In this document: positions 23,475-45,117 of the stretch, one piece after another | How the letters are laid out: each line of letters starts with the position of its first letter | Position numbering within the stretch: position 1 is the stretch's first letter | From: Antedon mediterranea | Lineage: Eukaryota > Echinodermata > Crinoidea > Comatulida > Antedonidae | Reading direction: 5' to 3' | DNA length: 64,000 bases | NCBI RefSeq assembly: GCF_964355755.1 | Contig: NC_092672.1 | Location: 7,130,001-7,194,000 of the forward strand | Translations under genes and position numbers: made by a program | The notes under the pieces: model-generated | Databases searched by the model: none | What the model saw: only the letters and a program-made list of their open reading frames with translations | What the model was told of the DNA's origin: nothing

Positions 23475-23557
23475 CTTTCTTTGAGATCCAAGAAACATTT
23501 ATTATATATGGCCTTTGGCCCAAATAATATACAATGTAATACAATATTAAATAAATA

Positions 23558-24296: not shown

Positions 24297-25087
24297 ATAA
24301 TAATAATAATAATAAATGAAAACTTATATAGCGCCGGTATCCTCCACCCATGTGGCGCTCATGGCGCTTTGTGCATTAACAACGTGCGAGAACATCAGCG
24401 AATAGCGACGTCTTTAGGTTGGTCTTGAAACTGTTTAGACTAGTTGAGCATTTAACTGTTGCTGGTAAGCTGTTCCATACACTTGCGGCCGCAACGTAAA
24501 AAGATCTCTGACCCCACTGATTTTTCGCTCTACGCTCTTGAAGAAGGTTTTGTGACAATGATCGTAGGCCTCTGCGGGATGATTCGTAACGATCCACAAG
24601 GTCAGATAAATAAGCAGGAGCACTGTCATTTAGGATCTTGAATACAAACAACGCAAGTTTGTACTTAATACGTTGTTGAACAGGCAACCAATGCAAATCC
24701 ATCAGGACAGGAGTTATGTGAGCGTTTGATTTTGTATAAGTTACAATTCTAGCTGCCATATTTTGCAAGCGCTGCAAACGTTGTATTTGAGATTTTGGTA
24801 TGCCAAACAACAAGGCATTACCAATGTCAATTTTAGAAGTGACAAATGAGTGTACAATCAATTCAGCTGTTTTCTTGTTAAGATTACCGCGAATACGACC
24901 AAGGTTCCTAATCGATATGCATGCTGCTTTGGATACAGTTGTTATTTGTGCTTCCATAGTGAGATTACTATCCAGCATGATTCCCGGATTCCGGACCACC
25001 GATGAGGGAGCGATGTTAGAGTTTCCGATTCTGATATGTGTGATGTTGATTTTGGAGATGTTACATTTAGACCCGACGATAATAAAT
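24297..25087 (-). mobile_element. Nested 5'-truncated CR1/L2-like LINE
   Basis: A minus-strand open frame (24376-24999) encodes the C-terminal part of a jockey/CR1/L2-type RT: HWLPVQQRIKYK, LFVFKILNDSAPAYLSDL and SVWNSLPATVK. The element ends in an ATT microsatellite tail (24298-24315). Host-LINE codons are split cleanly, with only a TAGG-like overlap at the two junctions (25089-25092 and about 24293-24297), so it inserted into the pre-existing LINE. The 5' part is missing. Confidence 0.82.
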
Positions 25088-27960
25088 TCCTAGAATGTAT
25101 TTACAGAATCTTAGATGAACTTTCTCTAATACTGATATATCATTTAAACCCCATATTTCGCTACCATAAAGTAAGATTGGCATAATCTTAACATCAAATA
25201 TATGGTTCCATATATTAACTTGGAGGTTACCAAAACGCCTATGGGTCAATCCTTTTAATGTGAACAAAGCCTTATTAGCTTGTTGACAATTGTATTTTTT
25301 GGCTTTATTCCAATTACCATTTGAGTTGAAAACAACTCCTAAATATTTAAAGGATTTGACAATGTCAACTGTATTTCCATTGTAATTCCATTTTTCAAAT
25401 TTGTTAAGATTACCACCATTCTTAAACACCATAATATTACTCTTGTTAACATTGACAGTTACATCCCATCTTGTACAATAGGTAGATAACTTGTTTAAAT
25501 AATATTGTAGACCATAAACGGTATCACCAAATAACATAAGGTCATCTGCATAGAGTAAATGATTAATTTTTAGATTTCCTATTTGGATTCTATGCTCGTC
25601 GCCTTCCTCATTTAATGTTTCACTCAAATCATTAATAAAAACATTAAATAAAAAGGACAAGAGTGGCGAACCCTGTTGTATACCTATTAGACATTTGAAA
25701 GAATTACTAATGTTGCCGTCGACCTTAACATGTGCTGATAACTTATTGTACATTGAATTAATAACGTTTAACATTTTTCCTTTTACTCCTGAATTTTTTA
25801 GTTTTATGTGAAGATATTGATGTCCTACGGAGTCAAAGGCTCGTTTAAAATCAATGAAAGCAACAAATACTTTCCCACGTTTTTTCCTAGGTATTTATTA
25901 ATGATTGTGTTAAGAATAAATACATTTTCCGATGTTCTGAACCCCTTTCTAAAACCGGCTTGTTCCTGATGTAGAATGTTATTATCTTCTGCCCAAAATT
26001 GTAATCTTTTATTAATAATATGTAAGAAAATTTTAGCAAAAACAGGAATAAGTGATATTCCTCTATAATTCTCTGGTTGTTCTTTGTCACCTTTTTTAAA
26101 TATTGGGACAATAAGACTGGTTGCCCATTGCTGTGGAAACTGTCCTGTATTATAAATTATATTATATAATTTTGTTATTAGATTGATTACATTTTGAGAT
26201 GAGTGTATAAAAAGTTCTGGTAATAATCCATCGATTCCAGGTGATTTACCTGTTTTTTGGGATTTAATGGCATGAATTACCTCATCTACTGTAATGTCAT
26301 TATTTAGGTTAGGTTCGTTTTCATTTACAGCAGGTTCATCATTAATGATACTTTCTACATTTTGATTATCTCTATTTTCATTATTATGAAATAAGGATTC
26401 GAAGTGAGTGCGCCATGTATTAATACATATGTTACTTGGAAAATTTGGTTTTGTTTGTTTTAGTTTAATCCAGAATGATTTGGAGTTTTTTTCTCCTAAT
26501 GATCTAATCAATTCTGTACGTGATCTTTTAATATAGCTGTATTTCTTATTTTTTATTAATGTTTTATATTCTTTTTTTATTTCCAGGTATGCATTAAGCA
26601 ATGTTTGTGTACGATTGTGTCGGAATCTATTTAAACTTCTTCGAACTTTGTTTTTAAGTGCAAGACATTGATTGTCATACCACGTGTCTTTAGCTTTAGT
26701 TGTTTTATTGTTGGATTTCCTATGGATAATTCCTTTACATGCATATTCATACAATCTACCTACAGTTGAAACAGCTTCATCAATTAGGTTATCATTAATC
26801 AAGTTAGTTATTTCATTTTTAAGTTCATCGATTTTATTATGCTGTAATCTTAATTTAAATGTTTCAGTATATGTTTCTGACCAATTGAATTTAGTTTGTT
26901 TGGGACAATTTTCAATATTTAATTTTTTTATTTTTATATTATCTTTAGTTAGTAGGCCTAATTGAAACGTAATTGGCATATGATCAGATTCTATTCTATT
27001 TTCTACTTTCAAATCTGCTATGTACCTGAAGTTATCAGCTTTTGTCAATATATAATCGACTACGCTTTTGCCTTGTTGTCCTATGAAAGTGTAGCTTTTA
27101 CTATACATTGGGTTAATTCTGCCAGTAGCAATTCTTACATTCGTTTCTTTACAAAAATTGAGAAGATCTATGCCATAATTATTCGTGACGTCATCTTCAT
27201 TAATTCTAATTGTTACATTATCTTCATCATCTTCAATATATAATTCGTTATCCCAATCTATTGGGCATACATCGTTGTTGACATAATCCAATAAATCTCC
27301 TGTTTTACCATTGAAGTCTCCAACAATGAATATTTGATTTTTATTATTATATTTATATAAATATTCAGCGTATTCGTTTGTAAGTATTTCATATAAATTG
27401 TTATTATTAGCATATGGGGAGTGTTGTGGTGGTCTGTAAACTACAGCCATTATTATAGAATCGTTCTCCGTTTTGATTCGTAACCACATAATATACTTAG
27501 ATAAGCTAGGTAATTCTTTAACTTTGATATTAGTTTTATAATATATCATAATTCCACCTGTATTTCTACCACGGTGTTGTAACTTTTCTTGCATTTTACT
27601 TATACAATTATATCCCTTAATATAGTAGTCATCACTAAAAGTTGTCCAAGTTTCAACCAAACATATTACATCGAAATCACAAATAAATTTTATAAATTCA
27701 CAATCACTAAAATTACTTTTTAAACCATTTATATTCCACACAATAGTCTTTAAAGAGGTGGACGTGTAAATACTTTTACTTATATTTTTATTTGTAACAT
27801 TGGTATATATATTGTTATTATTGACGTTGTTATTCCTATTATTAACGTCGGCGTTTATGTTATCGTTATCTATACCATTAGTTTGACCATTATTAGTTGT
27901 ATTGTCAATATTTTCTTTTTCATGATTTTCGTTATTATTCTCACCTTTATTATTATTATT
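25088..27960 (-). pseudogene. LINE ORF2: endonuclease and reverse transcriptase (frameshifted)
   Basis: After an Asn-rich linker, the frame from about 27741 encodes an APE-like endonuclease: WNINGL at the start, LVETW, AVVYRPP, IVGDFN, and an SDH-type motif (ESDHMPI). The RT begins near SPGIDGLLPELF, with FKKGDKEQPENYRGISL and QAGFRKG. Near 25880 the frame shifts by one at a run of six A residues (minus strand). The second frame carries FIDFKRAFD, GSPLLSFLFN and the catalytic YADD. The frame is then cut at 25088 by a second LINE. The product would be non-functional as read. Confidence 0.88.
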
Positions 27961-28050
27961 ATTGTCATTTACGTCATTATCAACAATTGTACCAATAATA
28001 TTATTACATTTGTTGTTTATTTGATATGTGTTTGGGCCATGGCCGGACCC

Positions 28051-29060
28051 CTATCTAGGTTTATATCTACTATACTTAACTACTTTATCATTATCTATAT
28101 CATATGTAAAAGTTTCGTCATCAATAATGAGTTTATCGTATCTTATTTTGAACGGTTTTCCGCTTTTAATAGCTTCATCTATTTTTGGTTGTAAATTTTT
28201 TCTGATCTTACGAACTCTTGCTGTGTAATCTTCGCTGATAGTAATTTGTTTCCTTCTTTCACCCCGGTCTTCATTTTTGTTCATTTTTCGACGTTGTGTT
28301 CTACTTGCTTTTAGAACATTTTCTTTAGTTTTGTAATCTTTGAATTTCACAATGATCGGTCTCGGTTTAAATCTTGCGTTGAGCCTATGTGCCCTCTCAA
28401 TCTCAATATTCTCCCCACCAATACCGAGATCATTTGTAAAGTGTTCTTTTACTTTCTTCTCACTCTGATCCCAATTCTCATGTTCGCTATCTACCACTCC
28501 ATATACTATTAAGTTGTTACGTCTGCTTTGACCTTCAATTTTGTCTATATGTTTGATTAATTGTAAGTTCATTGTTTTAAGTTGTTGATTTTCTTCTTCT
28601 ATTATTGTCATTCTTTCGTTTAGTGAGTCCATGTTGCTATTTAGTGTATCAATTTTTTCTTTTACGCTTTTAACATCTCCTGAAATGTCATCCATTTTCT
28701 TATTCAAATTTCGTGTTCATTGTTTGTAGTTGTATTAATATATTTTGTATTGAAGGTTCATTTCCTCCCGCATTCAGCGCAACTTGTGTTGTTGCGTCTT
28801 CCGTTGTGGGTTTACCAGTAAGTTCATCCAATGTAGCTTGTCTAGTGTAAACTGGACCTGGATTGCTTTCGATATCGCCGGCCAAAAAAAGTAACAAGCA
28901 TAACGCAGATAGTCGTAGTGTAGGCCTAGTTCTAATGACTGCACCTAAAGAACCATGACATTTTATGCGCTTTTGTTTATTTCGTTTTCCTCTCCAATAT
29001 AGTCCTATTCTTAACCGGTAATTATCAATGTCAATCCTATTGATGTAGGAGTTTAAGTGT
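28051..29060 (-). pseudogene. LINE ORF1: 2A-like leader, coiled coil and L1-ORF1-like RNA-binding region
   Basis: The open frame begins after a stop near 29062 and encodes a basic stretch, a hydrophobic segment (LSALCLLLFLAG) and then GDIESNPGP at 28853-28879. That matches the D-[VI]-E-x-N-P-G-P signature of 2A ribosome-skipping peptides. A Thr/Asn-rich segment follows to a stop at 28700. The protein continues in another frame from about 28707 with a heptad-rich coiled coil and a segment (RRNNLIVYGV... IERAHRL) typical of L1-type ORF1 proteins. No in-frame Met precedes the 2A, so the element is 5' truncated, mutated, or starts at a non-AUG codon. Confidence 0.8.
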
Positions 29061-29065
29061 GATTA

Positions 29066-29869
29066 GACGTGTAGTTATGTAAGCCAGTGCGTGCTATGTT
29101 GAGGTATTGTAGAACCAGAAGCAACTGGTTTCGGTAATGTGACGTGGCGTTTTTTGATCAAGTCCGGTCATGTGACTTGAAAATTCCGTTGAAGGGCGAT
29201 ATTTATACTGAAGTTATAGATTAAGTTAATGTAACGAAAATTTATAAAGTGAAATTGATATAACTTGTGGTATTTACTATTGAGTTATTACAATAAACCA
29301 AACAAAAGCAACTTATCTTGGTTTGACAGGCCTATGTCGTGGGCCTGCCGCTTAACAGCTGCTCTGGAATGTCGCCATGAGTTATGTTAATCCAACAAGT
29401 AAAAAAATCAGTTCCAATCGGTGTTTAAAAATCCCGCCGCTTAATTGCGGCTTACACAGGTAGTTTACAGTAGCTGTATATAACGTTAAATGTAGTTTCC
29501 GATGAGAAGGCTGTATAAAAAACGGTTGTCGTAGGCCTAGCATATTGATACTAGTGTACAGCGGAAAACATCGGGGTGTCGTGTTGAGATAGTATGAATA
29601 GACCGGGCTAGGGAGCACCGAACAAACACGTCTTCACTCGACCGCACTCACTCACGTAGCCTACTACGTTAATTGTTATAATTCAGTGAAAGTTAGACAG
29701 ATTTATGTGATAGACCTAAGTTCTTCGTCTTCTTCTTCTTTTCTTCTTCATGATTTAACAGTCCACTACAGGATATCGCTCCTCCAAATCTCTCCATTTA
29801 CTTTTCTCTTTTGCTATTCTGAACCAGTTGTTTTCTCATGTCATGTCATGTCATGTCATCTCCATCTCC
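29066..29869. other. Non-coding spacer upstream of the receptor exons
   Basis: May include the LINE 5' UTR. Contains a CTT/TCT-rich stretch (about 29718-29750) and a CATGT microsatellite (about 29836-29859). No first exon for the downstream receptor could be supported. Confidence 0.4.
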
Positions 29870-30095
29870 CTTTGAGTTTGCTTCTTTTCCTTTTCGCTAT
29901 CCTTGTCTGCCAAACTGTATAGTCCTGCTTGTCCACATGTTTTTGCTTGAAGTAGATCTCTGTTTATTATATCTTTCCTTTTGCATGGTACCTTGTTCAT
30001 TATTGTTATGCCAAGTATTTTCCGTTCTATTGCATACTGGGTTGATCTTAACTTATCCTTCTTCTCAGTAAGTCTCAAAGTTGAAAAGAAGAGAA
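29870..30095 (-). pseudogene. Relic of a LINE reverse transcriptase
   Basis: The minus frame reads KLRSTQYAIERKILGITIMNK and then a basic segment (RKDIINR). This matches the conserved LINE RT region of the type QRAMERKMLGI...RD. It is short and lacks catalytic motifs, so it is a degenerate fragment. The plus-strand hydrophobic open frame here is antisense to it. Confidence 0.6.
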
Positions 30096-30191
30096 AGAAG
30101 AAGGTTATTACACACTTCATCTAAATTATAGTGAATGGAGTAATATTATAGAAAAATGTGATCTAATGCAAGGCTCTTCGGTTTATTTCAG

Positions 30192-30757
30192 ATTCAACCT
30201 TGTATCCCGATCCAACTTTGTACCCAGATTCAACCTCGTATCCAGATACAACCTTATATCCAGTTTCAACTTCATATCCACATTCGACCTTTTATCCAGA
30301 TACAACCTCATATCAAGATTCAATCTCATATCCAGATACAACATCATATCCAGATACAACCTCGTATCCAGATACAACCTCAAATCAACATTCAACATCA
30401 TATCTAGATACAACCTCGTATTCAAATTCAATCTCAAAGCCAGATTCAACCTCATATCTAGATTCAATCTCACATCTAGATACAACCTCGTATCCAGATT
30501 CAACCTCGTATCCAGATACAACCTTATATCCAGATACAACCTCATATCAAGATCCAATATCATATCCAGATACAACATCATATCCAGATACAACCTCATA
30601 TCCAGATACAACCTCAAATCCTCATACAACTTCATATCCAGATTCAATCTCATATCTAGATACAACTTGGTATCCAGATTCAAACTCATATCCAGATTCA
30701 CCCTGGTATCTAGATCCAAGCTCATATTCAATATTTTCTTCAGAATATTATTACTCT

Positions 30758-30802
<45 letters not shown>

Positions 30803-30815
30803 GAATATTTGTATT
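30192..30815 (+). CDS. Minisatellite linker exon (Y-P-D-T-T-S repeats, poly-Tyr end)
   Basis: Acceptor TTTATTTCAG at 30191 and donor GTGAGT at 30816 bound 624 bp, a multiple of three in phase 1-1. The in-frame product is about 208 residues of six-residue repeats such as SYPDTT from an 18-bp minisatellite, ending in a run of tyrosines encoded by a TAC microsatellite. A Ser/Thr/Pro-rich stalk is plausible for O-glycosylation. All three plus frames and one minus frame stay open because the repeat has no stops; the frame was chosen by splice phase. The exon status is an inference. Confidence 0.55.
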
Positions 30816-33800
30816 GTGAGTTTAACGAATATTATTGATTTTTTTTTCAGCTATTTGTTTAATAAGTATCAACAATTATGATTACAAGCAAATATACCTG
30901 TCCTGGGATGGGTTTCAAATAATATAGTTTTACATTCATTTTAGAAAAAATGTATAGATTATTTAGACCAGTTGTCATAATCACATTGTAATCTATTTTC
31001 CAGATAACAATGAAGTTATAAATCTTGTTGGTGGCAATGTAAAACGAGAAGGTCGACTTGAACTGAAAGGTGATATTTCTGGTACTGTTTGTTCTGTTGG
31101 CTGGACCGAAGCAGATGCTGCATTAGTCTGTAAGAGTCTTGGTTATGAAGGTGTTGACGAATATTTGGTGTATAGCTTTGGAGAAGGGAATGGGACAATT
31201 TGGTCGAATATTAATGGTTGTATTGAACATCCTACGTGTAATCCAACGGATTCAACGGAAGATCCACAATGCACTCATGCAAATGATGTCGGGATAGTAT
31301 GTTCACCTTGTAAGTTAACAGGGAGCTTCGATTTGTTACGACCAACCTAGGCCAGGTCAACCGATGTGTCGGCGGTCCCTCGCCTGAACACAGAAACCGT
31401 CAAATCTGTGTCGAGGTGGAGATCGCGGACACACGTCCAAATAATTTCCTCATGGTCGCCGGTCGTTTAAAAGCGAAAGCTTCTAATATTAAATTGTAAT
31501 TTCAAAAAATCATGCATGTACCACTTTGAAGCTCAACTTGTTTACCCCTTTTTTAAAGTGACAATTCGACTTGTTGGTGGTGATAATCTGAATGAAGGGC
31601 GTGTAGAGTTTAATTATTTTGGTGAGTTTTCAACAATAAGGGATCTACATATCAGCGAAGCCGACGTCATTTGTCGTTCGCTTCCCTTTCCTTCTGCTGA
31701 GTTCTCGGATTGCTGTGGAATATATGGTACTGCCTTTGACCTGCCTTCTTATCAAGTCGAATGTAAAGGAAATGAGAAAGAATTATCTGACTGTTCGATA
31801 TATACTACCTATGATATTGACCAACAATCTGGGATTAGATGTTCAACTGGTAAGAATATGCAATGCAATATTGTTTGCCAAAAGGTATCTGATGAGTTTA
31901 GAATTTCTTTATAACATTTCTATCTATTTCTTTCTATATTAACATTTGTACTAAATTTAACCTGCACTGATTATGTCAATGATAATAAATGTATGACAAT
32001 TATTATACATTAAATAGTATTTTCTTAAAACAATTTAGTGTACTTAAAAGTCTTATTTCACAATATATTATTATAACACCAGCTCCTCAATTTTAGATGT
32101 TTTCTTTTAAAGAAACATGTACTAGGCCTACATCTTGTAAATGTATTAAAGGGCGGAGAGAAGATTCTGGGTGGGTATTTTAATTATTAATTTATCTTTT
32201 AATAGTGGTTATGATATTTCCTCAGATGGCGTAAGATTAACTGGACAGTTTGAATCAGATGGACCACTTGAAATCTTTACAAGCTCTGCTTGGCATAAAG
32301 TATGTTCGGTTGATTTTAACATTGAAGTTGGCGAAGTAATCTGCAGTCAACTCAACTTTGATGGTGTTTTAAATGTCACTGACATTGACAGTGACAACGG
32401 AACAACAACCATACGAGAAATTAATTGCACAGGAATGGAGAGAAAATTTGAAGAATGCTCTTTCAATATTGTGCCTGAACAAATGTGCACAAGTTTTGTG
32501 AAGCTGTCATGCATTGGAAGTAAGCAAATACAGTACTTAAATATACATTATTAAGCAGGGACAAATTCTTGATATACAAACATTAACTTTCCCTAAGTTG
32601 TTATATATTATCTTTTTATATTAATCCACACGTCGACGTTTCGAATTTGTCTGAAAAATTTCGAGCTCAGGTATTATAAGTATGAAACGCCATGTGTGCC
32701 AAAATATTTATGTTTTACCAATATTATATTCAGCCTATAACCAAGACATTTGACATTAGAACGTCTTCTTTGGGACACTCTATTTAGATAAACACCTTTA
32801 CAGAAAACATCCTTTTCAGAGGAAACCTCTTTTCATGGACATTTAGGCCTCCGGGTAAAACGAGGGGCAAACATTGTATATTAATACTGTTGACAGACTC
32901 TCAGTTGAATCTCTAAAGTTTCCCTTTAATATGTGTCCATTGTTGTAAACATAAGATATTCTTCATCCAGCTACGAAATTTATAGTAAAAAATGACTGAC
33001 CTTTAATCAACAAAATATTGTTTTCTTGACAGAAAAAAATGTTTTAATAATGACATACTGCAGCTAATAATCGTAAGCCATTTGTCTATATTAATTTGTA
33101 TTTATAATAATATTTACAGGTGGATCAAGATTTGCTGATGGGTATACTAGGAATTCAGGGTATGCGCAGGCATACATTAATAGCGAATGGAATTATATTT
33201 GCGACAGTGAAAGAAGAGTTACTGAATTTATCTGCTTACAAGAGCAATCAACTGGTGTTCACTTAGTACGAAACCAATACCCATTCTACATTTCTGACGA
33301 ATACGCTGATTGTGACATCACACCCGAAAACAGTCTACAGTGTAGTCAAAGCTTGGTTGATTGTTTTCCTTATCTTATTTATACGGAATGCTCAACGGGT
33401 ATGTAATTTTTGTTTTATATGCCATCCCTGAGTTCAAATCCTTCATCTAATTTAAGCCTAATTAACCCTTCATAAAATGCATGTTGAATTCAATAAATGG
33501 TAGGTCTATAGGTCTAAATCTGTGTTAAGTGTTAATTAATCGCTTCTAAAAGAGTTGTTTCTGACGGTACTTAATGCTTGGATAAATATTTTGCAATAAC
33601 TGCTTTAAAATCAGAACGTCCATCCATACTATTTGTCATGTCATCCGCATTATTACTATGATGTCCGTCAGTTATAAGCCTCTGATGACAAATGCAAATA
33701 ACGATCGACAATCATCTAAATTCATCCATTCTTTATCTACAACACATCTTCTTCACAATAGTATAACATACACTGGTCTCCAGTACCATGAACCCCGAAT

Positions 33801-36800
33801 ACCAATTCCACGTTCTTGGTATTTATGCCGTTTGTTCATTACGTCATTCTATTAACTAGTCAAGCATAGCGGGGAGTAACTAGTGCCATCATTTTGTTTT
33901 AAAGATGAGCTTATGAGATAATACTGTACCGCAATTTATATTTAGATGTTGTACGAATCAAGGGAGGAGGTCATCGTGGATTTGTTCAAATCTTCAAAGA
34001 TGGCAAATGGAATTATATTTGCAGTGAAAACTGGAATGTTCAGACTACTGAGCTTGCTTGTAAAGAACTCAACTTTCGCTCCACTTCTACAGTGACTGGT
34101 GTTGGTGTAAACACAACCGCCGTAGTACCCGATGCTCAGATCATTATGTGTGATGGAAGTGAATCGAGTTTGCTGAATTGTCAATTTGATACCAACATGC
34201 AATGTAAACGTCATGCTGTACAAGTCACGTGTTCTGACGGTGATAATTTGTGCTTTTTTGCTACACTACTATTGTCCTATTATTGTATTATTTTTGTATA
34301 AATTAATTAAATTTGTCTAGACCTATCTATACTTACTTTTTCACTGCCACATTCGTGATTTTATGATAGGAGTATTGGGTATTTAGCAAGAATAGGATTA
34401 CCTGTAGTAACTAGTGCTGATAAGTAGCGACATCTTTCTTTTATCTTACTCTACAGTTGGTATACGTCTTAGAGGATCGCCAGTAAAGCATGCTGGTCGT
34501 GTGGAAATATACAACAACAACCAGTGGTGGACGGTTTGCGATGATTATTGGGATACCAATGACGCGAACGTGGCATGCATTATGGCGGGTTATTCTGGAG
34601 CTACCAGAGGGTATCGTGAGGCAGCGTTTGGTGAAGGGGTTGGTCCTATTTTGCGCTATGATTTTTTTTGTGACGGTGATGAAGACGACTTATTTGATTG
34701 CCCATTTGGTACACATTCCGATGGATTCTGTTCACATTACGAAGATGCAGGAGTGATTTGTTCTACAGGTACGTTTCAGATCTTTGTATATGTGTACCAA
34801 AATAATCCAAAGGCATAACACCATAAAGGAGTATAACTGGGTTTACATGCAAAATTCACACATTTTTATACTTTTTATACAATAAAAAAAACACTACAAG
34901 ACCTTGAGATTTAGTGTTCAGATTCAAATTCATACACATTAATTAGGTTATTTGACAATAACTAGGGCCCGCACTAGAAGCAATAGCTTGTATCATGAGG
35001 GCCCCTACAAAATAAATATAAATATGCAAAATAAATAAAAAGAAACATCCCGTCTTAATGTCTGCCCTTTCATGTTATCGTCGCGTAATTGATGTTATTG
35101 TGCCGTGATTGTAATTTGTACGATTAATTAAAATGAATGTCTTGTTCCTTGTAACAGATATAATTCGTCTTTCTGATGGAAGCCCATCTGCCGGTCGGGT
35201 TGAACTATTTATCAATGGCCAATGGGGAACGATTTGTGACGATAACTGGGACATAAATGATGCCATTGTTATTTGCCGACAATTAGGGTTTGACAGAGCT
35301 GCTAACGCATACGACATGGCTAGATTTGGTCCTGGCAAAGGTCCAATACATTTTGATGAAGTTCAGTGTGCGGGAAGCGAAACCGATATCTTACTGTGTA
35401 ACACTAAAAGTATTCATGATTGTGAACATTCTGAAGACGCAGCGGTGTCCTGTGTTTCTGGTAAATATTGAACAAAATATATAAGTTTGAGTTTTTTTTT
35501 CACAGTAGATTTTCCGTCAGATGTTACACACAGTTGTTTATCTTTTTCATCTAGTCAGACGAATATGTGGTGAATATTAATTTACAACATTTTGTTGTTC
35601 CATATTTTTTTTTGGACCAATTAGTTTGTGGCGAGTTAAACTGTGGCCGAGTTTACTTGGGGTCGAGTTATGTATGGTAGATAAGATAGATGATTAAATA
35701 TCAAATACCTATCATCAATACGTTAGGCAATAAGGAGTATCTAAACATTAAATTGAAGCTCCCTTAATAAATCAACATTATTTTCATTGTAAGCTGTACT
35801 CTTTTCCTATTTAGACTCATTTGTGACTCCGTCATGGTTGAAACCATTTAACAGTATTCTGACAAAGGGTAAGTTACCATAAGATCAGTAATAACAAAGT
35901 AAATGTTATATTAATGAACAATGGACAGAGAATAAGAAGTATTATTCTCATCTGATATATACTATAATAAAAAAGAAACGAAAATGAATAAGAATGCAAG
36001 CAAAATCATAATTTATCGAATAAGATAGTAAGATTGAAATGAAAAGATAATATCAAGAGTAATGAAACATAAAAGAGAGAAAATTATTACATTTGAGTTT
36101 TAATTTAACAAAATAAAAATAACCCTTTACTAGCAGTAATGATAGCTTCGATAGAAGCTCTAAGATGATAGACAATACAATTGTTATTTCTAAGAGCTAT
36201 AGTGTATAAACGGAGTATTTTTAATCGAACGTTTCGATCTTTATTTTATATCTTTATCAACTCACTGCTTGTTGAATCCAATAGATTCAGGATCGGTTAA
36301 AAAATAAAATTATTGTTAATTTAAATGAAGCGAATCAGCAAATCACCCGTCGTAAACATTGAATTTTCAACAAAGTGTTCAATTTTTGCAGGTTGTAAAG
36401 ACTATTGGTTTCAAAACGATAATTCTTGTATAACAGTTATACATACAGAGCATAGTACTACGCTTTCCGAATTGTCTTGTCCAGAAGGATCGTCAGTTCT
36501 TTCAGTAGACACAGAAGTAGGCATGTTAGGAGAATATCTTCGAATAATATATTACTATTATGAAGAAATCACTCTTAAACTATTTCTTTGGCAAGATGGT
36601 AAATCAAAAACTTGCACTTTTTTTAATCGTACTGGTGATAATGGAGACACATGGGATGTGATTAGTGTACCGGCAATACAGTGTAACGACGTCTATGCTT
36701 ATGTTTGTAAAATGGATATTGAAGGTACAGTATTTGTAATGTCTCTATGCCATTGTACAATTGGTCTGTATTTAATCATCTACTCAATGATAACATTAAT

Positions 36801-39800
36801 GAACGAGTCTTGTGTTTAATCACGTGTGAAACCAAATTTTATAGAGAGTGGTTCAGTACAACATACAGTATTTGTTAAATATACATCATCACATACCTAA
36901 CATTTTAAAGTATTTATTTGATTAACTCAAACAAATTAAATTTTAGATCAGTCTCAAACATGTTCAAACAATCAATTCAGATGTTTATCTGGCGCTTGTA
37001 TTCTAAAATCATTACAATGTGACGGAAACTTCGATTGCCCTGACAAAAGCGATGAAGATGAACAATGTATTCAAGGTAATACAGTAGGCCTATATCAGTA
37101 TTATTCTCGAGATATTCTCGTGTATTTCTGGTGGAATTTCTCTCGTTTTCACGACGTAGGCATTCGCGGTCTAAAGGGAATTCTTCTGCGCAGACAAAAA
37201 AGTACAGGCCGAATGAAGATAGTTACCACCGGTAAAGTACTATAGGCCAGGAATGAGTAGTTCTTTTTTAAAAACCAAAAATTAGTGAAACTAACCTGCT
37301 TGACAGCTTCTTTAGAAGAATGGCTATAGGCTAGGCTTCGCATATTCCATATTATGTATCAATAATATTGCGGTTTTTCTTATTTTAGAGTGTTCCGATT
37401 CGTTGGACGGCCACGACTATCGGGGGACAAAGAACAATACAACAAATGGAATACGTTGTATAAAATGGACAAGTAATTTTAAAGGAACTGATGCGATATA
37501 TCCAGTAGATTACATTGGTAAAGGTATTGGTGATCACAACTTTTGTCGGAATCCAAACGGAAGACAACAGCCATGGTGTTATACAGAGGATTTTTATGAA
37601 GTTGAAGATTGTGAAATTCCATTATGTGGTGAGGAAATGAATATCAGAGTCTATTGTATGCTGTATTTGTTTCAAACAATCTCTTATGGCCAAATCAGCC
37701 AGCGTCGTATGACGAGGCGTGAAAACATTAAACATGTTTAAAGTTCTTGTGACGACCTAAAAACTGCACCTGAAGCTAGCTCAAGACGACTCGTCTCGTT
37801 GGGATTCAACTCAGACAGCACCGACGAGTCAAGACGTTTCGTTTCACTAAAACCTATTCCAAAGTTTTGGTAACAAGTTGTTATTATTTGGGTTATAACA
37901 CTATATCATTTTTTTTTAGATCAAGTTTCAGATGCAGATTTAAACAATTGTCCAATCACAAGCTTCCAGTGTTCATCAGGTCATTGTATTTCCTATTCAT
38001 TCCGTTGTGACCATAAACCAGACTGCCCAGATAGCTCAGATGAACAAGATTGTAGTAAGTTTATGTTCACATGACTGTTATATTGTTATTTTGGATAAAG
38101 ATTTGTTTAAAAAAAAGAAAAATAAATAATTTATACGCTTTGTACTTGGTGCATAGCGCACCGCATAGTCACTTGTTAGACGAACTCACTGGGCCACTCA
38201 GTGCTTTAAAATGCGCATAATACATGTTTTTTTTTAATGGTAGTATTCAGGAATTGCACCGATGTCGAGTTTTCCTGTGATAATGGACGCTGTTTACAAT
38301 CTTCATTGCAATGTAACAGAATTAAAGACTGTTTAGATGGAACAGACGAACTAAAATGTGGTAGGCGGTTTTTCTTGGATAACATGGCATAACATTAGCA
38401 CAACATTTTATTGTAAGGGGAGTTTACAGTTGGAGAGATTTTTTGGATCTTACAGTGTATTATGCCTCATGTAATGTATAGAACAACAAAAGACTGATAG
38501 GTTGTAGATACAAAATGGGAAGATCTTTAATGTATGGAAAATTAGAAGGTGAAGCCTAGAACGTGCCGCACTGCAACTGCAATTGTATTAAAATAATTTC
38601 GCTCGAGTAACAAAAGTGCTGTATATATCCATTTATTTTTTCCGGTGCAAGTGTCACTTAATACAGTTATCTTTACCAGGTGAATGCAGCTCTGGTTTTT
38701 TACGATGTAGTGATGGTAAATGTTTGCACCCAAAATTCAAATGTGATCGAATAAGAGATTGTCCAACAGGAATTGATGAGCCCATGGATGAGCCAAATAA
38801 TTGCCGTAAGTAGTAGCAATCAAATAATCACTAACATTTCATATTTCATTGAGTTTAGACAGGTATTTGAAGCAAGTTTTTCTTAAGTGAACATATAAAT
38901 GATGACAGTGACGAAACTAGACTAGCTTTATCATTTGGAGGCAAGTTATCGCTAATTCTTGTGTTGTCATTCCTATTATAGAATATACTGATACAAAATC
39001 GTTATGTAATCAAACAGAGATGGTATGCGCAAATGGCATTTGCATTGATCAGCGTCACCTGTGTCTATTAGACTACGATGTGTATTCAGACGACGTTATA
39101 ACAGGTTGTCGAGATCGTAGTCACTTACAACATTGTGGTGAGTTGTTTCATGTGTTGTGCAACGTTCGTATTTATTCAATATTATAATCATACAACGATC
39201 CTGTTTATTCAGGAACGATGGTACTTGACAAAAATGTATAACATAAAGGTTTCAATTGCTTTGTTTATCGTGCATTTTCTACTTTTCACAAGTTATGACA
39301 CGCCATATATGCCTTTTTTAAATATTAAGTCAAAACACCTGGACCCGAAGACTGGCATATTAAAGTACTTTTCGTGAATAAGTGCATTTTGTAGGATTGT
39401 AGATAATAAAAAAATCATTTTGTTTGAAAAATCCAGTAAAATAATTACTCACATTCTTTAGCTTTCGCCATCTTGGCTGACGGCTTGATCACAAGTGATC
39501 CGGTCCACGGCTACTTCCTGGAAATCTGTTGTTATTGTTTCTAGGTGACGTCATACTTTTTCGTAGCAATGATGTGTATACGTGATCGAGAAATACAGCT
39601 CCTTCGTCGTGGTTGATTGCGTTATACCCCACCCCCCCCCCTCTTTCTGATTTGGATTGCTTTTACTTTGTAAATTATTTGTTTTATTTTTAAAGTGTGA
39701 ATTATTTAAAGTACGATTGTTTTATTATTTATTACAAACAGTTTTCATTGGGGACCTACATGCAACATTATAATAACTCAGCATTTATTTATTATATTTT

Positions 39801-42800
39801 GATTTGAAGACCCTTACAGAAGACTCGGTTCTCGGGCAAATTGTTCCATATATTGTTCCACTAACACAAGAACTTATGAGATAAATCTCCTCTTTTTGCA
39901 AAAGTTTCTAACTCTTTAAATCATACTTTATCGTGTAGCTTCATTCGAGTGTCCAGCAAACACATACAAGTGTCCGAGCTCGTACTGCATAACAATCAAA
40001 AGCCGATGTGATGGGCGAGATGATTGCGAAAATGGAGAAGATGAACAGTATTGTGAGGATTATAACTGTCCAGGATACTTCAAATGTCAAGATGCGTCAA
40101 ATTGTATTTCTCAAGGTCGTGTGTGTGACGGAATCAAAGACTGTCTTCGTGGGGATGATGAACTTTTTTGCGGTAAGATGTGATTCAAAATTCAAAAAAT
40201 ATTAATACTAAATAAATAGAGAATCAGTCATAAAATAAGTAACACAAAGTGTCATCTATGTGTTCTAGATTATTTGGATACGTTGATTTAGGAAAAAATG
40301 AAACCGTAACGAATTGATCTTTAAAATTGTTCAAACTACTTTTCATTGATAAATTGTGTCATAGATATACAGTGTCCTAACGGGTGTTTCTGCCAGGACC
40401 TTTCATACAACTGTCATGGAGTAGAATGGACAGCGGAAAAAGCTGCCTTAATTTCGCCAGATGTACGATACTTGTAAGTAAAATAATTTATATTTTTATA
40501 TATGTATTGTTTATAAAAAGGTAACTAAACATTGTTTCCTTGCAAACAATTCCATACACAATTTGTCGCAGCCAATCATAAGATCAAAGGACTGTTAAAA
40601 CTTGGTCCTATATTGGCAAGGCGAGCTCAACATCATGTTGTTAAATTACCTTGATATTAAATAAGTTCTTTTTTTTTTATTTTCAGAAATCTAAGCAAAG
40701 TATCTATAGTTCCTTCAGAAGACACAGGTGAAGATCTGCTATTCTTAAATCCCAGTATTTTCAAATTAAATTTTGTTTTGTAAGTTATATTAAATAAAAA
40801 TAATGTTTAAATAATATTTATGTATAGAGATGAATAACTATGCGGCAGTAGTAGAGTATGTTCAAGTATTTTGTTTACACTTGTAGATGTAGTATAACTA
40901 TTGTGCTTTTTTTTAAACATTACTTAATAATGAGCATTTTCTTTTTACAGAGATATCTCTGGAAACAATATCAAGAAACTAACAGGTGAAATGTTTTATC
41001 AGTTAGACCATCTGACAACTCTGTAAGTCGTCATCACAATTTAGTAAACAGTTTTTAAAAATGGTTTTTGCATTTGGACTTTTGTCAATAGACGTAATAG
41101 AGGCCGACGTCATTAGGTTCCTATCTAGAGATCATGTATAACGTTATACAGTAATATGTATTCATCAAATGCACCAGAAAGCAGAATAGCAGGTTTATCG
41201 TAAATAGTAACGAATTTATAAACTTATATTTACCTATTCTAGATACATGCAAGGCAACGATATATCATCATTAGAAGGCGATGTCTTCCAGGATTTAAAA
41301 CAATTGAAATATCTGTAAGTAAACAATGTTAAACTTATATAGAGTAGACTAGTTGTAGTTTTTGGTAAACCTTTGAGTTTATTTTTTTCTAAACCTAATC
41401 TGAAGCTCATTAAACATGTTTAGTTAAATTTCTTTATACCGCTACAATTATAGTAGACTATATATATAATACTTTTGCATAAAAAAACATAAAAAACATA
41501 CATCAACATTTCGGAACTAATTGTTTATTTGTTTCATTAACAGTAATATTCATGGCAATGGATTGAAATCCATCGGCAAAGGAACATTTTTCGGATTATC
41601 AAAACTCCAGTATTTGTAAGTATAAAGTATTTTAAAGATGTACGTGAAATGTATCGGTTAATGGAGAAAACACCTTACAATTTAAATACAAAATAGCAAA
41701 AAAATATACACAAATATTAAATTACTAAGTAAAAGTTTCAGATAGTTATTTATCGTGTATATACATATAACAGAATGGTAACATTATTTATTTGTGCTCT
41801 ATTTTAGAAATATGTCTGGAAATAACATTGGTAACGTTGATAAATTGATATTCAAGGACTTGATGTCTCTTAAAACATTGTGAGTAATGCATCTTATGAA
41901 AGACAGACTCTTCTACAAAGTATATACAGCAGCTCTTGCTCTTATAGCGGTGTTGTGTCCATGTAGGAACCGCGAGCTTCATGAAGTAGTTTTTTCATTT
42001 CAGAATATCTGATGATTATTCATTTTGCTGTTTGTTGGAAGATGTTGGTTTTAACGACGTTGACTGTACGCCAGATGCAGACGTGTTTTCATCATGTGAC
42101 AATCTTATGCAGAATGTGTACCTTAGAGCTTTCTTATGGTTGTTTGGACTGAGTGCACTTCTTGGAAACAGTTTTGTAATCTTATGGCGATGGATAAATT
42201 GGCCTGCAAAGAAAAGTCCATCTTACACACAATCGTTTCTAATTACTAATCTTGCAGTTGCCGATATGCTTATGGGGTTGTATATGTTGATCATTGCCAG
42301 TGCCGATTCCTACTATCGGGAAGATTACGTCACACATGATAGCGAATGGAAGGCCAGTCGAATATGTACGCTTGCAGGAATCTTAGCCTTTCTATCCAGT
42401 GAATCGTCTGTGTACACTTTAACCGTCATTAGCTGCGACAGGTTTTTGCACATTGCATTTCCATTTCGCCGTTTTCATCTTACACAAGAAACAGTAAAAT
42501 TTGCAGTGGCTGTAGGATGGTTTCTGACCCTCTTCACGAGTATTCTTCCAGCATTACCAATCCCGTACTTTAACAATGAGTATTACGGTGTCACCAGCGT
42601 GTGTCTTGCATTGCCATTAACGTCGGAAAAAGTGAGAGGTTGGGAATATACCGCTGCGATTTTTATAGGTTTTAATTCGTTATGCTTCTTGCTAATTTTT
42701 GTTTGTTATTCAGGTGTGTTCATTTTAATAAAGATATCGAGTAGTAAAGTAAATCAAGCAGGAAACATGAATTCTGACAAGAATAAGCACATTGCAATTG

Positions 42801-45117
42801 CTATACGAATGGCTGTTATTGTCGCTACTGACTTCTGCTGCTGGGTACCCATCATAATAATGGGTATTTTATCATTGACAACATCTGTTAACATACCCGC
42901 CACGGTATATGCCTGGGCTGCAGTCTTCATTTTGCCAATAAATTCAGCAATTAACCCATACTTATATACAATAGCATCTTTAAAGAAACTTCAAAGGCAA
43001 CTAAAACCTTCTAAACATGTATCAGAAAGTATGCCAGCTACGGAAAGAATAAATGTGAAAATTGGTACGTAAAGAAAATTGTCTATTTCTTTATGTAATT
43101 AGGATGATAAATCGCCGTTACTGTTACTACAGAGAGAACAAAAAGTGTTTTTATTCTATATAAATAGTTTGGTCTAAATTTAAACGAACATTTATTTTTA
43201 GTAAGTTTTCTAGCCCTCTAAGTAATAATAATGGAAACTGTTTTCCAAGGGTCCCTCCTACGTTAATTATTTTATAATTGATTGTTAAACTTTTGTTATG
43301 TATGTCACGGAAACTGAACGTCATACATCACGTCACATTGTCTCTCTCCACCTAGTTACAGTAAGAACAACAAGCAATTATTGTAGTCATACTTTTAACT
43401 CTTGTTTTTGTCATTGTTTACTCAGAAGGTGTAACCATCCCACAAAATCGAAAAGAGCAATCTACCGTTGAGAAAATCGAAGCTATGTTATCAACTGGAA
43501 CAGACAGACATGGGAAAGAACTTGATGCAGACGTACGTAAACACCTTTCAATGGCGTTGAGATTTGCTAAGCAGCAACAGGCTGGAATTGTACAAGTAAG
43601 AACGTTTATTTATATTGTTATGTAAGTACACATCACAAAACAGAAAAATTTCTGAATAAAATGACAATGCGGTTCGTAGGCCTGTCAGTAGCTGGATCTC
43701 AATGGAGATTCAAATAAAATATGCAAAAATATAAATCTGAGCTTTCGCTAAACCGTGTAATCCTTCGTTAAACCGTGTAATCCGTCGTTAGGGCAAGTAT
43801 ATTATACTTATAAACTAGTGTTATGGGCAAGTTGCCTATCTTATCACCTATTGGCTTCAAATATGCTCCCCGCCGCAGTAATGATTTTGTGTGAAAAGTG
43901 TGAAGGATAACCATAATTCTGTTGTAGCCTTAAAATATAAAATATACAAATACATTACAAAAATATCATGTAGCAAATTAGGTTCAGTTATCTATATATA
44001 AATTATTACGTAAGAACAAAATTCGGTAAATCGCGTGTTACTAGAATGTTTAGGCCTACTCGATGGTATGATAAAGTTGGTTCGTACTTTCGATACTGAT
44101 TTTAACCACCTGATGTAACCCTGTTTACTGATTAAATTGAGTTAGATAATTAGTTATTGACAATTAAATTTAGGTTTAACGATTTGCCCCAAATAGGGTC
44201 AAATAGGATACACGGTCTAATGGATGTCTATCTAGAAAAATACCCGCACACAATAATACGAGGATGCCTCGCATTTTCTCCTAATCTCCTCCTACGATAA
44301 TTGTTTTTAATAGCTGAAAGCCGGTTGAACTTTTCCAGTACAGCATTATAATGTTGAAGACCGGCTGATTTTCTTTAAAAAATACTATTTTGATAGATTT
44401 AATAGACGTTTATAGGCCTACAAAAGGATTGCTTGGCGATGAATGGAACATTAGTATAAGATAATGCAAGTTGTTTCTATGTTGTATCTAAATGAACACA
44501 TGTCGTGTAAAGCCGATTTTCCACCAGGCGAATTGTTTCACGCGAATCAAAAGCGTCAGCTTTTACGCATGCGTAGATATGGATTTGGAAGACGCTTTCG
44601 AGTTGTACGAACAAATTTGCCTATTGGAAAATCAGGTTAAATGACAATAAAGATGTATTTATTGTTTTCTTTGGTTTCTTGCAGGTTGAGGTTGAGGATT
44701 GTGTGGAATCCGAAGAAAATACACAAGAAGAATCTGAAGACACTACACAAAATCAAACTCAAGACGAAACACAAGAACGAAGCGAATACTGTATAGGGGT
44801 ATCTAATTCTGCTTGTGATAACGTTATATAAGATGACCCGAGTAGTTTCTCTGTTGCATCTAAATGAACAAATAATAAGTCGTGTAAATAACAATAAAAA
44901 CGTATTGTTCTGTTTTGGTTTCTTCTAGGTTGAGGATTGTGTGGAATCCGAAGAAAACACACAAGAAGAATCTGAAGACACCTCACAAAATCGATCTCAA
45001 GACGAAACACAAGAACGAAGCAAATACTGTATAGGAGTGTCTAATCCTGCCTACGATAACGAATCATACGTCACTACAAGTCTCACCTATCAAGACGACA
45101 CACTTTTTCAGCATTAA
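30192..45117 (+). CDS. Giant chimeric LGR-type GPCR: SRCR-CTL-LDLa-kringle-LRR-7TM
   Basis: At least 30 exons in one orientation; exon lengths and codon phases match throughout. The ectodomain exons are phase 1-1, LRR exons are 72 bp and phase 2-2, and a single large exon encodes the 7TM. Domain order is Tyr/Pro/Thr/Ser linker, SRCR x7, C-type-lectin-like, LDLa, kringle, six LDLa or LDLa-like modules, LRRNT plus LRRs, rhodopsin-like 7TM and tail. The predicted product exceeds 2,000 residues. LDLa plus LRR plus this 7TM type is known from type C LGRs (relaxin receptors RXFP1/2 and molluscan GRL101). SRCR and kringle domains in the same protein are unusual. Ligand unknown. The 5' end with a signal peptide is not located, so the model is partial. 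Two neighbouring genes are possible but phase continuity argues for one. Confidence 0.82.
31004..31309 (+). CDS. Receptor exon: SRCR domain 1
   Basis: 306 bp, phase 1-1. [38 protein letters not shown] and VGIVCS are the SRCR landmarks, with conserved cysteines. Acceptor TTTTCCAG, donor GTAAGT. Confidence 0.88.
31559..31849 (+). CDS. Receptor exon: SRCR domain 2
   Basis: 291 bp, phase 1-1. [17 protein letters not shown] begins the domain, followed by ADVICRSL and GIRCSTG. The usual WGTVCDD segment is missing (short [14 protein letters not shown] instead), so the first cysteine of the fold is lost. Confidence 0.82.
31850..32225. other. Receptor intron, nothing recognised
   Basis: AT-rich intron between SRCR 2 and SRCR 3. 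The other receptor introns over 300 bp (32520-33119, 33399-33945, 34769-35157, 35461-35814, 35869-36391, 37076-37388, 39138-39950) likewise show no recognisable element except a C-rich run near 39637-39650. Confidence 0.4.
32226..32519 (+). CDS. Receptor exon: SRCR domain 3 (divergent)
   Basis: 294 bp, phase 1-1, using acceptor TATTTCCTCAG at 32225. [27 protein letters not shown] and KLSCIG mark a complete but divergent SRCR. The nearby AATAG at 32205 gives the wrong phase and was not used. Confidence 0.82.
33120..33398 (+). CDS. Receptor exon: SRCR domain 4 (strongly divergent)
   Basis: 279 bp, phase 1-1. [21 protein letters not shown] and [14 protein letters not shown] follow the SRCR cysteine order, but the V-R-L start and the G-R-V-E segment are poorly conserved. 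It would be easy to miss with an automated gene finder. Confidence 0.72.
33946..34239 (+). CDS. Receptor exon: SRCR domain 5
   Basis: 294 bp, phase 1-1. [36 protein letters not shown] and VQVTCSD are clear SRCR landmarks. The donor is a weaker GTGATA. Confidence 0.83.
34457..34768 (+). CDS. Receptor exon: SRCR domain 6 (canonical)
   Basis: 312 bp, phase 1-1. [55 protein letters not shown] and AGVICS match the SRCR consensus with all expected cysteines. Confidence 0.92.
35158..35460 (+). CDS. Receptor exon: SRCR domain 7 (canonical)
   Basis: 303 bp, phase 1-1. [53 protein letters not shown] and AAVSC are close to the family consensus. It is the best conserved SRCR of the gene. Confidence 0.93.
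35815..35868 (+). CDS. Receptor mini-exon: 18-residue linker
   Basis: 54 bp between acceptor TTTTCCTATTTAG and donor GTAAGT, phase 1-1. It encodes a short linker (about [17 protein letters not shown]) between SRCR 7 and the lectin-like domain. Supported only by good splice sites and phase. Confidence 0.55.
36392..36724 (+). CDS. Receptor exon: C-type-lectin-like domain
   Basis: 333 bp, phase 1-1. [15 protein letters not shown] at the start, [15 protein letters not shown] in the middle and a closing [12 protein letters not shown] follow the cysteine and Trp/Phe layout of a C-type-lectin fold. The sugar-binding EPN/QPD and WND motifs are not visible, so carbohydrate binding is not implied. The acceptor at 36391 gives phase 1; an upstream open frame from 36325 is intronic. 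Confidence 0.7.
36947..37075 (+). CDS. Receptor exon: LDLa domain 1
   Basis: 129 bp, phase 1-1. [23 protein letters not shown] and DKSDEDEQC give all six cysteines and the Asp/Glu calcium cage of an LDL-receptor class A repeat. It lies before the kringle. Confidence 0.9.
37389..37628 (+). CDS. Receptor exon: kringle domain
   Basis: 240 bp, phase 1-1. [38 protein letters not shown] and CEIPLCG are diagnostic of a kringle: the YRG and RNP...PWCY cores are intact and the six cysteines are present. Kringles occur in plasminogen, ROR kinases and related proteins. I know of no kringle in a type C LGR. Confidence 0.92.
37920..38054 (+). CDS. Receptor exon: LDLa domain 2
   Basis: 135 bp, phase 1-1. 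[23 protein letters not shown] and DSSDEQDC: six cysteines and the SDE motif, a complete LDLa. Confidence 0.9.
38244..38360 (+). CDS. Receptor exon: LDLa domain 3
   Basis: 117 bp, phase 1-1. [23 protein letters not shown] and DGTDELKC. The acceptor at 38243 (TGGTAG) preserves phase; TATTCAG at 38250 would not. Confidence 0.85.
38680..38805 (+). CDS. Receptor exon: LDLa domain 4
   Basis: 126 bp, phase 1-1. [23 protein letters not shown] and [11 protein letters not shown]. The last loop is longer than usual and lacks the canonical SDE. Confidence 0.86.
38982..39137 (+). CDS. Receptor exon: LDLa-like domain 5 (degenerate)
   Basis: 156 bp, phase 1-1. [14 protein letters not shown] and HLCLLDYDV, ending in LQHC. 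The cysteine order is LDLa-like, but the calcium-binding acidic loop is altered. Confidence 0.7.
39951..40172 (+). CDS. Receptor exon: LDLa domains 6 and 7, first one missing a cysteine
   Basis: Two LDLa repeats: [21 protein letters not shown] and [15 protein letters not shown] with CDGIKDC. From the obvious acceptor (GTGTAG, 39939) the phase-1 frame starts with SFECP but reaches a TAA near 39990. Using the weaker acceptor at 39950 (TTCGAG) the exon is 222 bp, phase 1-1 and open, but the first cysteine of repeat 6 is lost. A one-base loss near 39959 explains both facts. It may be real, an assembly error or allelic. Confidence 0.7.
40365..40473 (+). CDS. Receptor exon: LRR N-terminal cap
   Basis: 109 bp, phase 1 to phase 2. 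[16 protein letters not shown] is a typical LRRNT cysteine cluster, followed by a short lead into the first LRR. The phase change marks the move from ectodomain modules to the LRR exons. Confidence 0.85.
40687..40779 (+). CDS. Receptor exon: LRR 1 (long, divergent)
   Basis: 93 bp, phase 2-2. [20 protein letters not shown] then [11 protein letters not shown]. It is seven codons longer than the following LRR exons and departs from the LxxN consensus. Confidence 0.75.
40951..41879 (+). CDS. Receptor exons: four 72-bp leucine-rich repeats
   Basis: Four exons of exactly 72 bp, phase 2-2: 40951-41022, 41243-41314, 41544-41615 and 41808-41879. Each encodes one 24-residue LRR ([60 protein letters not shown]). 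One LRR per 72-bp exon in this phase is the hallmark of the LGR receptor family. Confidence 0.92.
42004..43064 (+). CDS. Receptor exon: rhodopsin-like 7TM domain of LGR type C
   Basis: One exon encodes the LRR C-cap ([10 protein letters not shown]...SSCDNL) and all seven helices. Landmarks are [16 protein letters not shown] in TM1, [19 protein letters not shown] in TM2, an [12 protein letters not shown] motif after TM3 in place of [14 protein letters not shown] in TM6 and NSAINPYLY in TM7. These match relaxin-receptor/GRL101-like GPCRs. Donor GTACGT leaves phase 1; if the intron were retained the protein would stop two codons later (TAA at 43070), giving a short-tailed form. Confidence 0.93.
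43426..43595 (+). CDS. Receptor exon: cytoplasmic tail, proximal part
   Basis: 170 bp, phase 1 to phase 0, acceptor TTTACTCAG, donor GTAAGA. It encodes a hydrophilic segment ([20 protein letters not shown], then [19 protein letters not shown]) with no recognised domain. Confidence 0.8.
43655..43760 (+). repeat. Partial copy of the 62963-63382 inverted-repeat element
   Basis: Shares ATGACAATGC, GGCTGGATCTCAATGGAGAT (here AGCTGGATCTCAATGGAGAT) and a following AAATAAAA stretch with the left arm of the element at 62963. The opposite arm is missing here. It lies in the intron before the duplicated terminal exons. Confidence 0.6.
43990..44460 (+). repeat. Dispersed repeat, copy 2
   Basis: Diverged reverse complement of 2310-2745. 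Matching landmarks run in order from CGGTAAATCGCG through GTAACCCTGTTTAC to CGATGAATGGAACATT. It lies inside the last receptor intron. Confidence 0.75.
44511..44640. mobile_element. Small inverted-repeat element in the duplicated exon unit
   Basis: GATTTTCCACCAGGCGAATT at the left and AATTTGCCTATTGGAAAATC at the right form an imperfect inverted repeat of about 20 bp around a 90-bp interior. The duplicated copy of this intron before exon b lacks it, so it inserted after the duplication or was lost from one copy. Confidence 0.55.
44685..44831 (+). CDS. Alternative terminal exon a (without NPxY)
   Basis: Phase 0 acceptor TTTCTTGCAG. It encodes an acidic tail ([17 protein letters not shown], then [16 protein letters not shown]) and stops at 44829-44831. 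It is a near copy of the exon at 44929 but the NPAY of that copy is NSAC here. An AATAAA at 44893-44898 could end a transcript using this exon. Confidence 0.78.
   Translation, partial: VEVEDCVESEENTQEESEDTTQNQTQDETQERSEYCIGVSNSACDNVI
44929..45117 (+). CDS. Alternative terminal exon b (with NPAY)
   Basis: Phase 0 acceptor TTTCTTCTAG. Same acidic segment as exon a, then [19 protein letters not shown] and [11 protein letters not shown] to a stop at 45115-45117. NPAY fits the NPxY signal bound by PTB and clathrin adaptors. The exon and its upstream intron border were duplicated together. The two are mutually exclusive ends because exon a has its own stop. Confidence 0.8.
   Translation, partial: VEDCVESEENTQEESEDTSQNRSQDETQERSKYCIGVSNPAYDNESYVTTSLTYQDDTLFQH

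Follow-up and report, generated by a model that had tools for sequence, protein, structure and literature searches.

The window analysed here (the whole stretch of 64,000 nucleotides, C3:7130001-7194000) raises the question of whether a row of SRCR, lectin-like, LDLa, kringle and LRR modules upstream of a seven-transmembrane (7TM) exon belongs to one gene, and what kind of receptor such a gene would encode. A sequence-only reading of this DNA had proposed one gene rather than two or three, with exon phases running on from the first SRCR exon (31004) to the tail, and an order of modules for which it knew no described family. Relatives were searched for in the assembly of 354 Mb and 18 contigs. 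When the exons are joined in silico, the window yields an ORF of 1,838 codons in 25 exons with a single stop, at its end, and the domain order is signal peptide, seven SRCRs, a tentative C-type-lectin-like module, LDLa1, kringle, LDLa2-7, LRRNT, five LRRs, hinge, 7tm_1 and cytoplasmic tail. The stop-to-stop frames at 31.0-45.1 kb carry the Pfam matches to SRCR, Ldl_recept_a, Kringle and 7tm_1; those above the gathering score comprise the kringle, the 7tm_1 domain, SRCR on six of the seven exons proposed for it and clear LDLa matches on five exons, one of which holds two modules. The claim of continuous phases is borne out, as all junctions from SRCR1 onward are AG/GT and in phase (1-1 up to the last LDLa exon, 2-2 among the LRR exons) with no internal stop, and the 22-exon chain from SRCR1 to the 7TM has strong splice sites at each module edge. 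Since the exon edges were picked with phase in view, this continuity alone is not independent proof, which is provided by the comparison with paralogues.

A search with the 7TM found seven loci on the plus strand of C3, namely G1 (6.98 Mb), G2 (7.01 Mb), G3 and G4 (7.05 Mb), G5 (7.10 Mb), G6 (7.12 Mb) and G7, which is the window copy, while a dispersed copy, G8, lies at 3.18 Mb on the minus strand of the same contig, 4 Mb from the window. Their 7TMs are monophyletic (100/100 in the tree). At least seven copies (G1, G2, G3, G5, G6, G7 and G8) share the order SRCR1-7, LDLa1, kringle, LDLa2-7, LRRNT, LRR0-4 and 7TM, which indicates a real receptor design, undescribed as far as the open-licence literature shows. 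It is this repetition of the exon order in the six other copies that upholds the proposal of a single gene, and the window very probably encodes one gene from SRCR1 to the 7TM, judging by its sequence and that of its relatives. Two copies depart from the pattern. The 7TM exon of G5 (C3:7097352-7098439) is frameshifted in an otherwise near-identical copy, and G4 (C3:7047961-7055438), near-identical to the window gene, is 5'-truncated and retains LDLa3 to 7TM only; its product might be a short receptor resembling GRL101.

The competing reading is that two neighbouring genes, an upstream one for a secreted or membrane SRCR protein and a downstream one for a GRL101-like LGR (LDLa, kringle, LRR and 7TM), were duplicated together. 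Arrays of two neighbouring genes can duplicate as blocks, and the truncated G4 would fit a separate downstream gene, but here the block order has persisted while synonymous sites diverged to near saturation, and it is found again in the dispersed copy on the opposite strand. The gap of ~0.9 kb between SRCR7 and the lectin-like exon contains AATAAA motifs, which could also suit two genes; however, all phases continue across it, the SRCR7 exon has a phase-1 donor without a stop, the distance from SRCR7 to LDLa1 is reduced to ~0.5 kb in G8, and a signal-peptide-like exon occurs in this gap in none of the copies. More generally, no transmembrane exon common to the lineages (none at all in G8) and no recurrent signal-peptide-like exon were found in the gaps between modules. 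Together with a paralogue on C1 whose SRCR modules likewise precede CUB, CTLD, LDLa and 7TM, this makes the two-gene reading very improbable. That the locus is a pseudogene, an assembly artefact or a chimera is scarcely credible: the frameshift in G5 and the truncation of G4 show that copies do decay, yet the 25 open exons, the purifying selection described below and the several independent copies refute it for the window copy, short of a hidden regulatory loss.

The SRCR block consists of phase 1-1 exons, which like all coding exons of the gene lie on the plus strand. SRCR1 (31004-31309; Pfam E = 1.9e-13) is 48-60% identical at the amino acid level to its counterparts in G1, G2 and G8; SRCR2 (31559-31849; 1.5e-10) and SRCR3 (32226-32519; 5.9e-14), also compared with the paralogues, follow, then SRCR4 (33120-33398), SRCR5 (33946-34239; 4.7e-13), SRCR6 (34457-34768; 6.8e-24) and SRCR7 (35158-35460; 6.2e-29), the latter being the best conserved (69-71% in G1, G2 and G8). 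SRCR4 is degenerate and the exon scanned alone has no Pfam match. It is similar to the other SRCRs by BLAST and is kept at the same place in every full-length copy, so that the proposed number of seven holds, with six domains over the Pfam cut-off. The product thus belongs to the SRCR superfamily, which asks for at least one such domain, but it is not a scavenger receptor proper (secreted or single-pass, with no 7TM), as its SRCR exons continue, without a break in phase, into the exons of a 7TM gene. The lectin-like assignment of the next exon (36392-36724, phase 1-1) is a weak one. A profile of the paralogues matched against PDB gives CLEC9A as best hit (E = 0.016), while Pfam Lectin_C gives nothing on the exon, which is also omitted by a genome-wide Pfam lectin scan. 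Alignment with paralogous CTLDs using hhalign gives E = 0.03 at a probability of just 1.7%, and an AlphaFold2 model of the exon with five paralogues reaches a pLDDT of 41. The name is therefore kept as tentative. Among the copies with the full order, the exon is missing from G8 alone.

The LDLa and LRR modules had been proposed without their number, which can now be given as seven LDLas, and an LRRNT with five LRR exons. LDLa1 (36947-37075; Pfam E = 4.2e-12) is followed by the kringle (37389-37628; phase 1-1; 9.7e-18), with 63-65% amino acid identity in G1, G2 and G8, then by LDLa2 (37920-38054; 1.4e-12), LDLa3 (38244-38360; 5.4e-10), LDLa4 (38680-38805; 4.7e-7), the divergent LDLa5 (38982-39137; weak Pfam match) and a fused exon carrying LDLa6 and LDLa7 (39939-40172; 2.7e-16 over two stretches). 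The two modules of the fused exon occupy two exons in G1, G2 and G8, pointing to an intron loss in the G3-G7 lineage. Calcium-type acidic motifs are legible in the LDLa modules. LDLa5 is conserved in the paralogues, and its signature GCRDxxHLxxC is common to LGR paralogues on C1, C4 and C11 (ACRDxxHLxxC on C5). The whole array is collinear one to one with those of paralogues, the identity order ranking 1 of 5,040 against C11 and 3 of 5,040 against C1; taken singly, LDLa3, LDLa5 (with its signature) and LDLa6 identify their counterparts in most comparisons, and LDLa2 and LDLa4 are ambiguous. As the collinear seven-LDLa arrays of C11 and C1 have no kringle between LDLa1 and LDLa2, the kringle is an insertion in the C3 lineage.

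Downstream of the array, the LRRNT exon (40365-40473; phase 1 in, 2 out) contains the conserved motif CPNGCFC, and is followed by a first LRR-type exon of 93 nt (40687-40779) and four LRR exons of 72 nt (40951-41022, 41243-41314, 41544-41615 and 41808-41879), all of phase 2-2. The cysteine-rich hinge and the 7TM share one exon (42004-43064; Pfam 7tm_1 E = 4.9e-29), whose phase-1 donor is found in G7, G1, G3 and G8. A putative type-C hinge motif, FCC...C.P..D.FSSC..LM, is present in the sequence, and the 7TM motifs LAVAD, DRF, CWVP and NPYLY can be read intact. Ranked against solved structures, the 7TM is nearest to RXFP1 (E = 2.9e-48), then TSHR (2.4e-38), LHCGR, FSHR and LGR4, which confirms the LGR type proposed for it. 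With a class-A 7tm_1, LRRNT and LRRs directly before it and LDLa N-terminal to the LRRs, the product has these features of a type-C LGR, and the seven LDLas agree with type C2 (GRL101), which carries several. None of the exons scanned contains 7tm_2, GPS or GAIN, and 7tm_1 is the only 7TM match, so that this is not an adhesion GPCR. The product is very probably a class-A signalling receptor of the type-C LGR kind, relaxin-receptor/GRL101-like.

The 5' end differs from what had been proposed. The region had been thought to begin at 30192, but 30192-30830 contains no exon: it is part of a degenerate minisatellite (30085-30830, unit of ~18 bp) that leaves several frames open on either strand, and the 30.2-30.8 kb stretch was rejected as N-terminal exon. 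Such a repeat is easily mistaken for a repetitive protein exon. The search for a signal-peptide exon 5' of 30192, suggested in the sequence-only reading, led through copy G6 to 23283-23340, the coding part of an exon encoding MAAYRHAIKLIMLFTTITS, with the acceptor CAG immediately 5' and a phase-1 donor. In G6 the ATG exon with the same peptide lies ~1.4 kb 5' of SRCR1, and 25 of 25 amino acids are identical between the two within DNA that is 92% identical. G1 and G2 have a signal-peptide exon ~0.3 kb 5' of SRCR1, which in G1 encodes MNIVQMAIWIFGPLVLIILSDFPYS; the start CAG|AACT..ATG is common to the G1 and G6/G7 exons and supports their homology. No homologue of the G1 exon was found near SRCR1 of the window. 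Because the donor of the window exon (GTGCTA) is weak, and with the exon 7.7 kb upstream of SRCR1, we infer the assignment, and 23283-23340 is likely the signal-peptide exon of the receptor gene. Much of this distance is taken up by an insertion of ~6.2 kb in intron 1 (23478-29658), delimited by the break in the blastn alignment with G6 and lying outside the mature gene. It contains, on the minus strand, a LINE/L1-like ORF1 and a decayed, frame-broken reverse-transcriptase ORF (Pfam RVT_1 E = 5.5e-5; Transposase_22 E = 1.2e-3).

Selection along the protein was assessed by comparing G7, G1 and G8, between which most synonymous differences are near saturation (pS 0.6-0.8). The pN/pS ratio, from Nei-Gojobori-type counts at these saturating distances, is 0.2-0.4 in most modules (~0.2-0.3 in LDLa and 7TM, ~0.4 in the SRCR block), the G7/G1 comparison being noisy for the kringle. 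Purifying selection thus acts on every module across three lineages. The modules do not all evolve at the same pace: the ratio of nonsynonymous to synonymous differences in SRCR1-5 and the lectin-like module is 0.85 against 0.24 in the other modules for G1/G2 (Fisher p = 1.6e-4), 0.51 against 0.25 for G7/G8 (p = 5e-9) and 0.52 against 0.27 for G7/G3 (p = 0.038). A conserved signalling end with a freer distal end is the pattern that would be expected of a recognition arm, and relaxed constraint would look alike.

The window family is part of a much larger set. At least ~60 further LGR-type 7TM loci, some of them fragmentary, were found at 41-50% identity, for a total of at least ~70; these counts are lower bounds, as only the top candidates were scored in the family searches. 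The most elaborate relative is on one strand of C1 (20199961-20225567), with kringle, CUB, F5/8C-like, four LDLa, two SRCR, CUB, CTLD, seven LDLa, LRRNT, LRR and 7TM. A locus on C4 (21.38 Mb) has F5/8C-like, four LDLa, CUB, CTLD, seven LDLa, LRR and 7TM, and one on C11 (22.07 Mb) has CUB, CTLD, seven LDLa, LRR and 7TM. These three gene models are based on the order of modules on the same strand, not on exon phase; their Lectin_C matches are weak, slightly below the family cut-off, and the F5/8C-like exon of C1 has no Pfam match, its label being a reading by eye. Since its relatives bear CUB, lectin and F5/8C-like modules, and one of them SRCR and kringle as well, the window gene can be seen as one variant of a modular LGR expansion. 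The persistence of such intermediate architectures in one genome would allow the stepwise assembly of a modular receptor to be read exon by exon. On C7 (4055454-4085532), SRCR exons are followed by a phase-compatible LRRNT, many LRRs and an LGR-type 7TM; judged from this one copy, the C7 set (4.05-4.48 Mb) is likely a second SRCR-LGR design. Next to the copy examined, the other three members of the tandem lie at 4.20, 4.34 and 4.48 Mb. Elsewhere on the same contig (C7:14087000-14090000), another LGR 7TM gene has upstream of it a long tandem repeat (RQRRGCKTIH / TDKEGG) with several open frames.

Amongst known receptors, the window gene resembles RXFP1/2 (type C1) and GRL101 (type C2) in its 7tm_1 with a putative LGR hinge, its LRRNT, its 72-nt phase-2 LRR exons and its LDLas before the LRRs, and the seven LDLas match GRL101, which has many, better than RXFP. 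Unlike both, it places a kringle among the LDLas, has seven SRCRs and a lectin-like module besides, and is limited to five LRR-type exons, compared with about nine LRRs in RXFP1 (PMC9545775). Surveys of ambulacrarian LGRs describe ectodomains of LDLa and LRR only (PMC8286064, PMC11863921), and SRCR, lectin-like or kringle modules on LGRs are not mentioned in these echinoderm LGR papers or in PMC6267866. Extra N-terminal adhesion modules are known on type-C LGRs, since cnidarian Nvec-LGR4 and placozoan Tadh-LGR-5 bear CUB and fibronectin-II domains (PMC9545775); the C1, C4 and C11 paralogues carry CUB too and the window gene has none, while SRCR, kringle and lectin are unreported for those two receptors. 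The same kinds of N-terminal modules (kringle, SRCR, C-type lectin and LDLa) occur on amphioxus adhesion GPCRs (PMC2246102), which however have 7tm_2 and GPS; in the window gene the 7TM is of the 7tm_1 kind and GPS is absent. SRCR repeats are likewise carried by GPCRs of the adhesion class, in sponges (PMC4302439) and, as SRCR with 7tm_2, in A. planci (PMC10855680, Table 1). In placozoans, CTLDs are found on adhesion GPCRs and on one glycoprotein hormone receptor (PMC6321704), which is LGR-like, in both cases without SRCR or kringle. SRCR and kringle on GPCRs had thus been reported for the adhesion class, and are seen here on a relaxin-type LGR. No report of the two on an LGR was found in the open-licence literature, in agreement with the earlier reading, which knew of no described family with this order, though automated annotation may already list genes built in this way. 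Judged by sequence comparison and that literature, the architecture is real and undescribed, and the kind of receptor to which it belongs, the type-C LGR, is a known one.

The best overall explanation, to which we give a probability of about 70%, is a single type-C LGR gene whose ectodomain was lengthened by exon shuffling and which would couple polyvalent capture to G-protein signalling. Seven SRCRs and a fast-evolving lectin-like module would have been added N-terminally, and the kringle would have entered the conserved seven-LDLa array as a phase 1-1 exon. SRCR domains are frequent binders of polyanionic and microbial ligands, kringles are protein binders, and in RXFP receptors the LRRs and LDLa jointly switch the 7TM. 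The SRCR end, together with the lectin-like module where present, may capture polyvalent ligands, for instance glycoproteins, matrix proteins, proteins that have been modified or the surfaces of microbes, with the kringle possibly contributing a protein-docking site; the LDLa/kringle/LRR stalk would relay the binding, and an LDLa-LRR-hinge unit of RXFP1 type would switch the 7TM, which would signal via G proteins. A receptor of this design could make a wide range of particles or proteins perceptible to cells by way of G proteins. We consider polyvalent capture by the SRCR end to have an even chance. A specifically microbial or immune recognition is a doubtful extension of it, and a shade more doubtful is the broader idea of a lineage-specific class of pattern-recognition GPCRs, in which microbes or altered self, bound directly by SRCR arrays, lectin-like modules and kringles on type-C LGRs, would elicit G-protein signalling, with N-terminal modules diversified by tandem duplication and exon shuffling. 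If the arm does sense microbes or matrix, animals that lack adaptive immunity would have a direct path by which scavenger-type recognition feeds into G-protein signalling.

Two other functions have to be weighed against this. The gene could encode a receptor for a relaxin or insulin-like peptide hormone, bound by LRR and LDLa, with SRCR, lectin and kringle as inherited decoration serving only as tether or spacer. The 7TM, hinge, LDLa and LRR are indeed the most conserved parts and similar to RXFP1, GRL101 has been put forward as an IGF receptor (PMC8286064) and RXFP/LGR3 is a target of starfish relaxin-type peptides (PMC11863921); mere decoration, however, sits badly with the purifying selection that holds all SRCR and kringle exons over a long divergence, the LRR stretch is short compared with that of RXFP1, and the number of LGR-type 7TM loci exceeds any plausible set of hormones, which makes this function unlikely. 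Less likely still is a chemosensory receptor acting through the variable arm of an expanded LGR family in epidermis or tube feet: GRL101-like receptors are enriched in the sensory tentacles of the crown-of-thorns (PMC6267866) and the family has expanded in tandem, but SRCR arms are atypical for odour sensing. Polyvalent capture coupled to a type-C LGR remains the preferred reading.

The cytoplasmic tail follows the 7TM exon through tail exon A (43426-43595; phase 1 to 0), which is 93-98% identical in near copies and 27-29% in G2 and G8. The last exon is duplicated (44685-45117), and tail1 (44685-44831), a possible alternative terminal exon, is 86% identical over 44 aa to tail2 (44929-45117), which carries the stop. 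The NPAY motif in the last exon is conserved in near copies and, speculatively, could support internalisation; this NPxY-like motif is kept by tail2 and lost by tail1.
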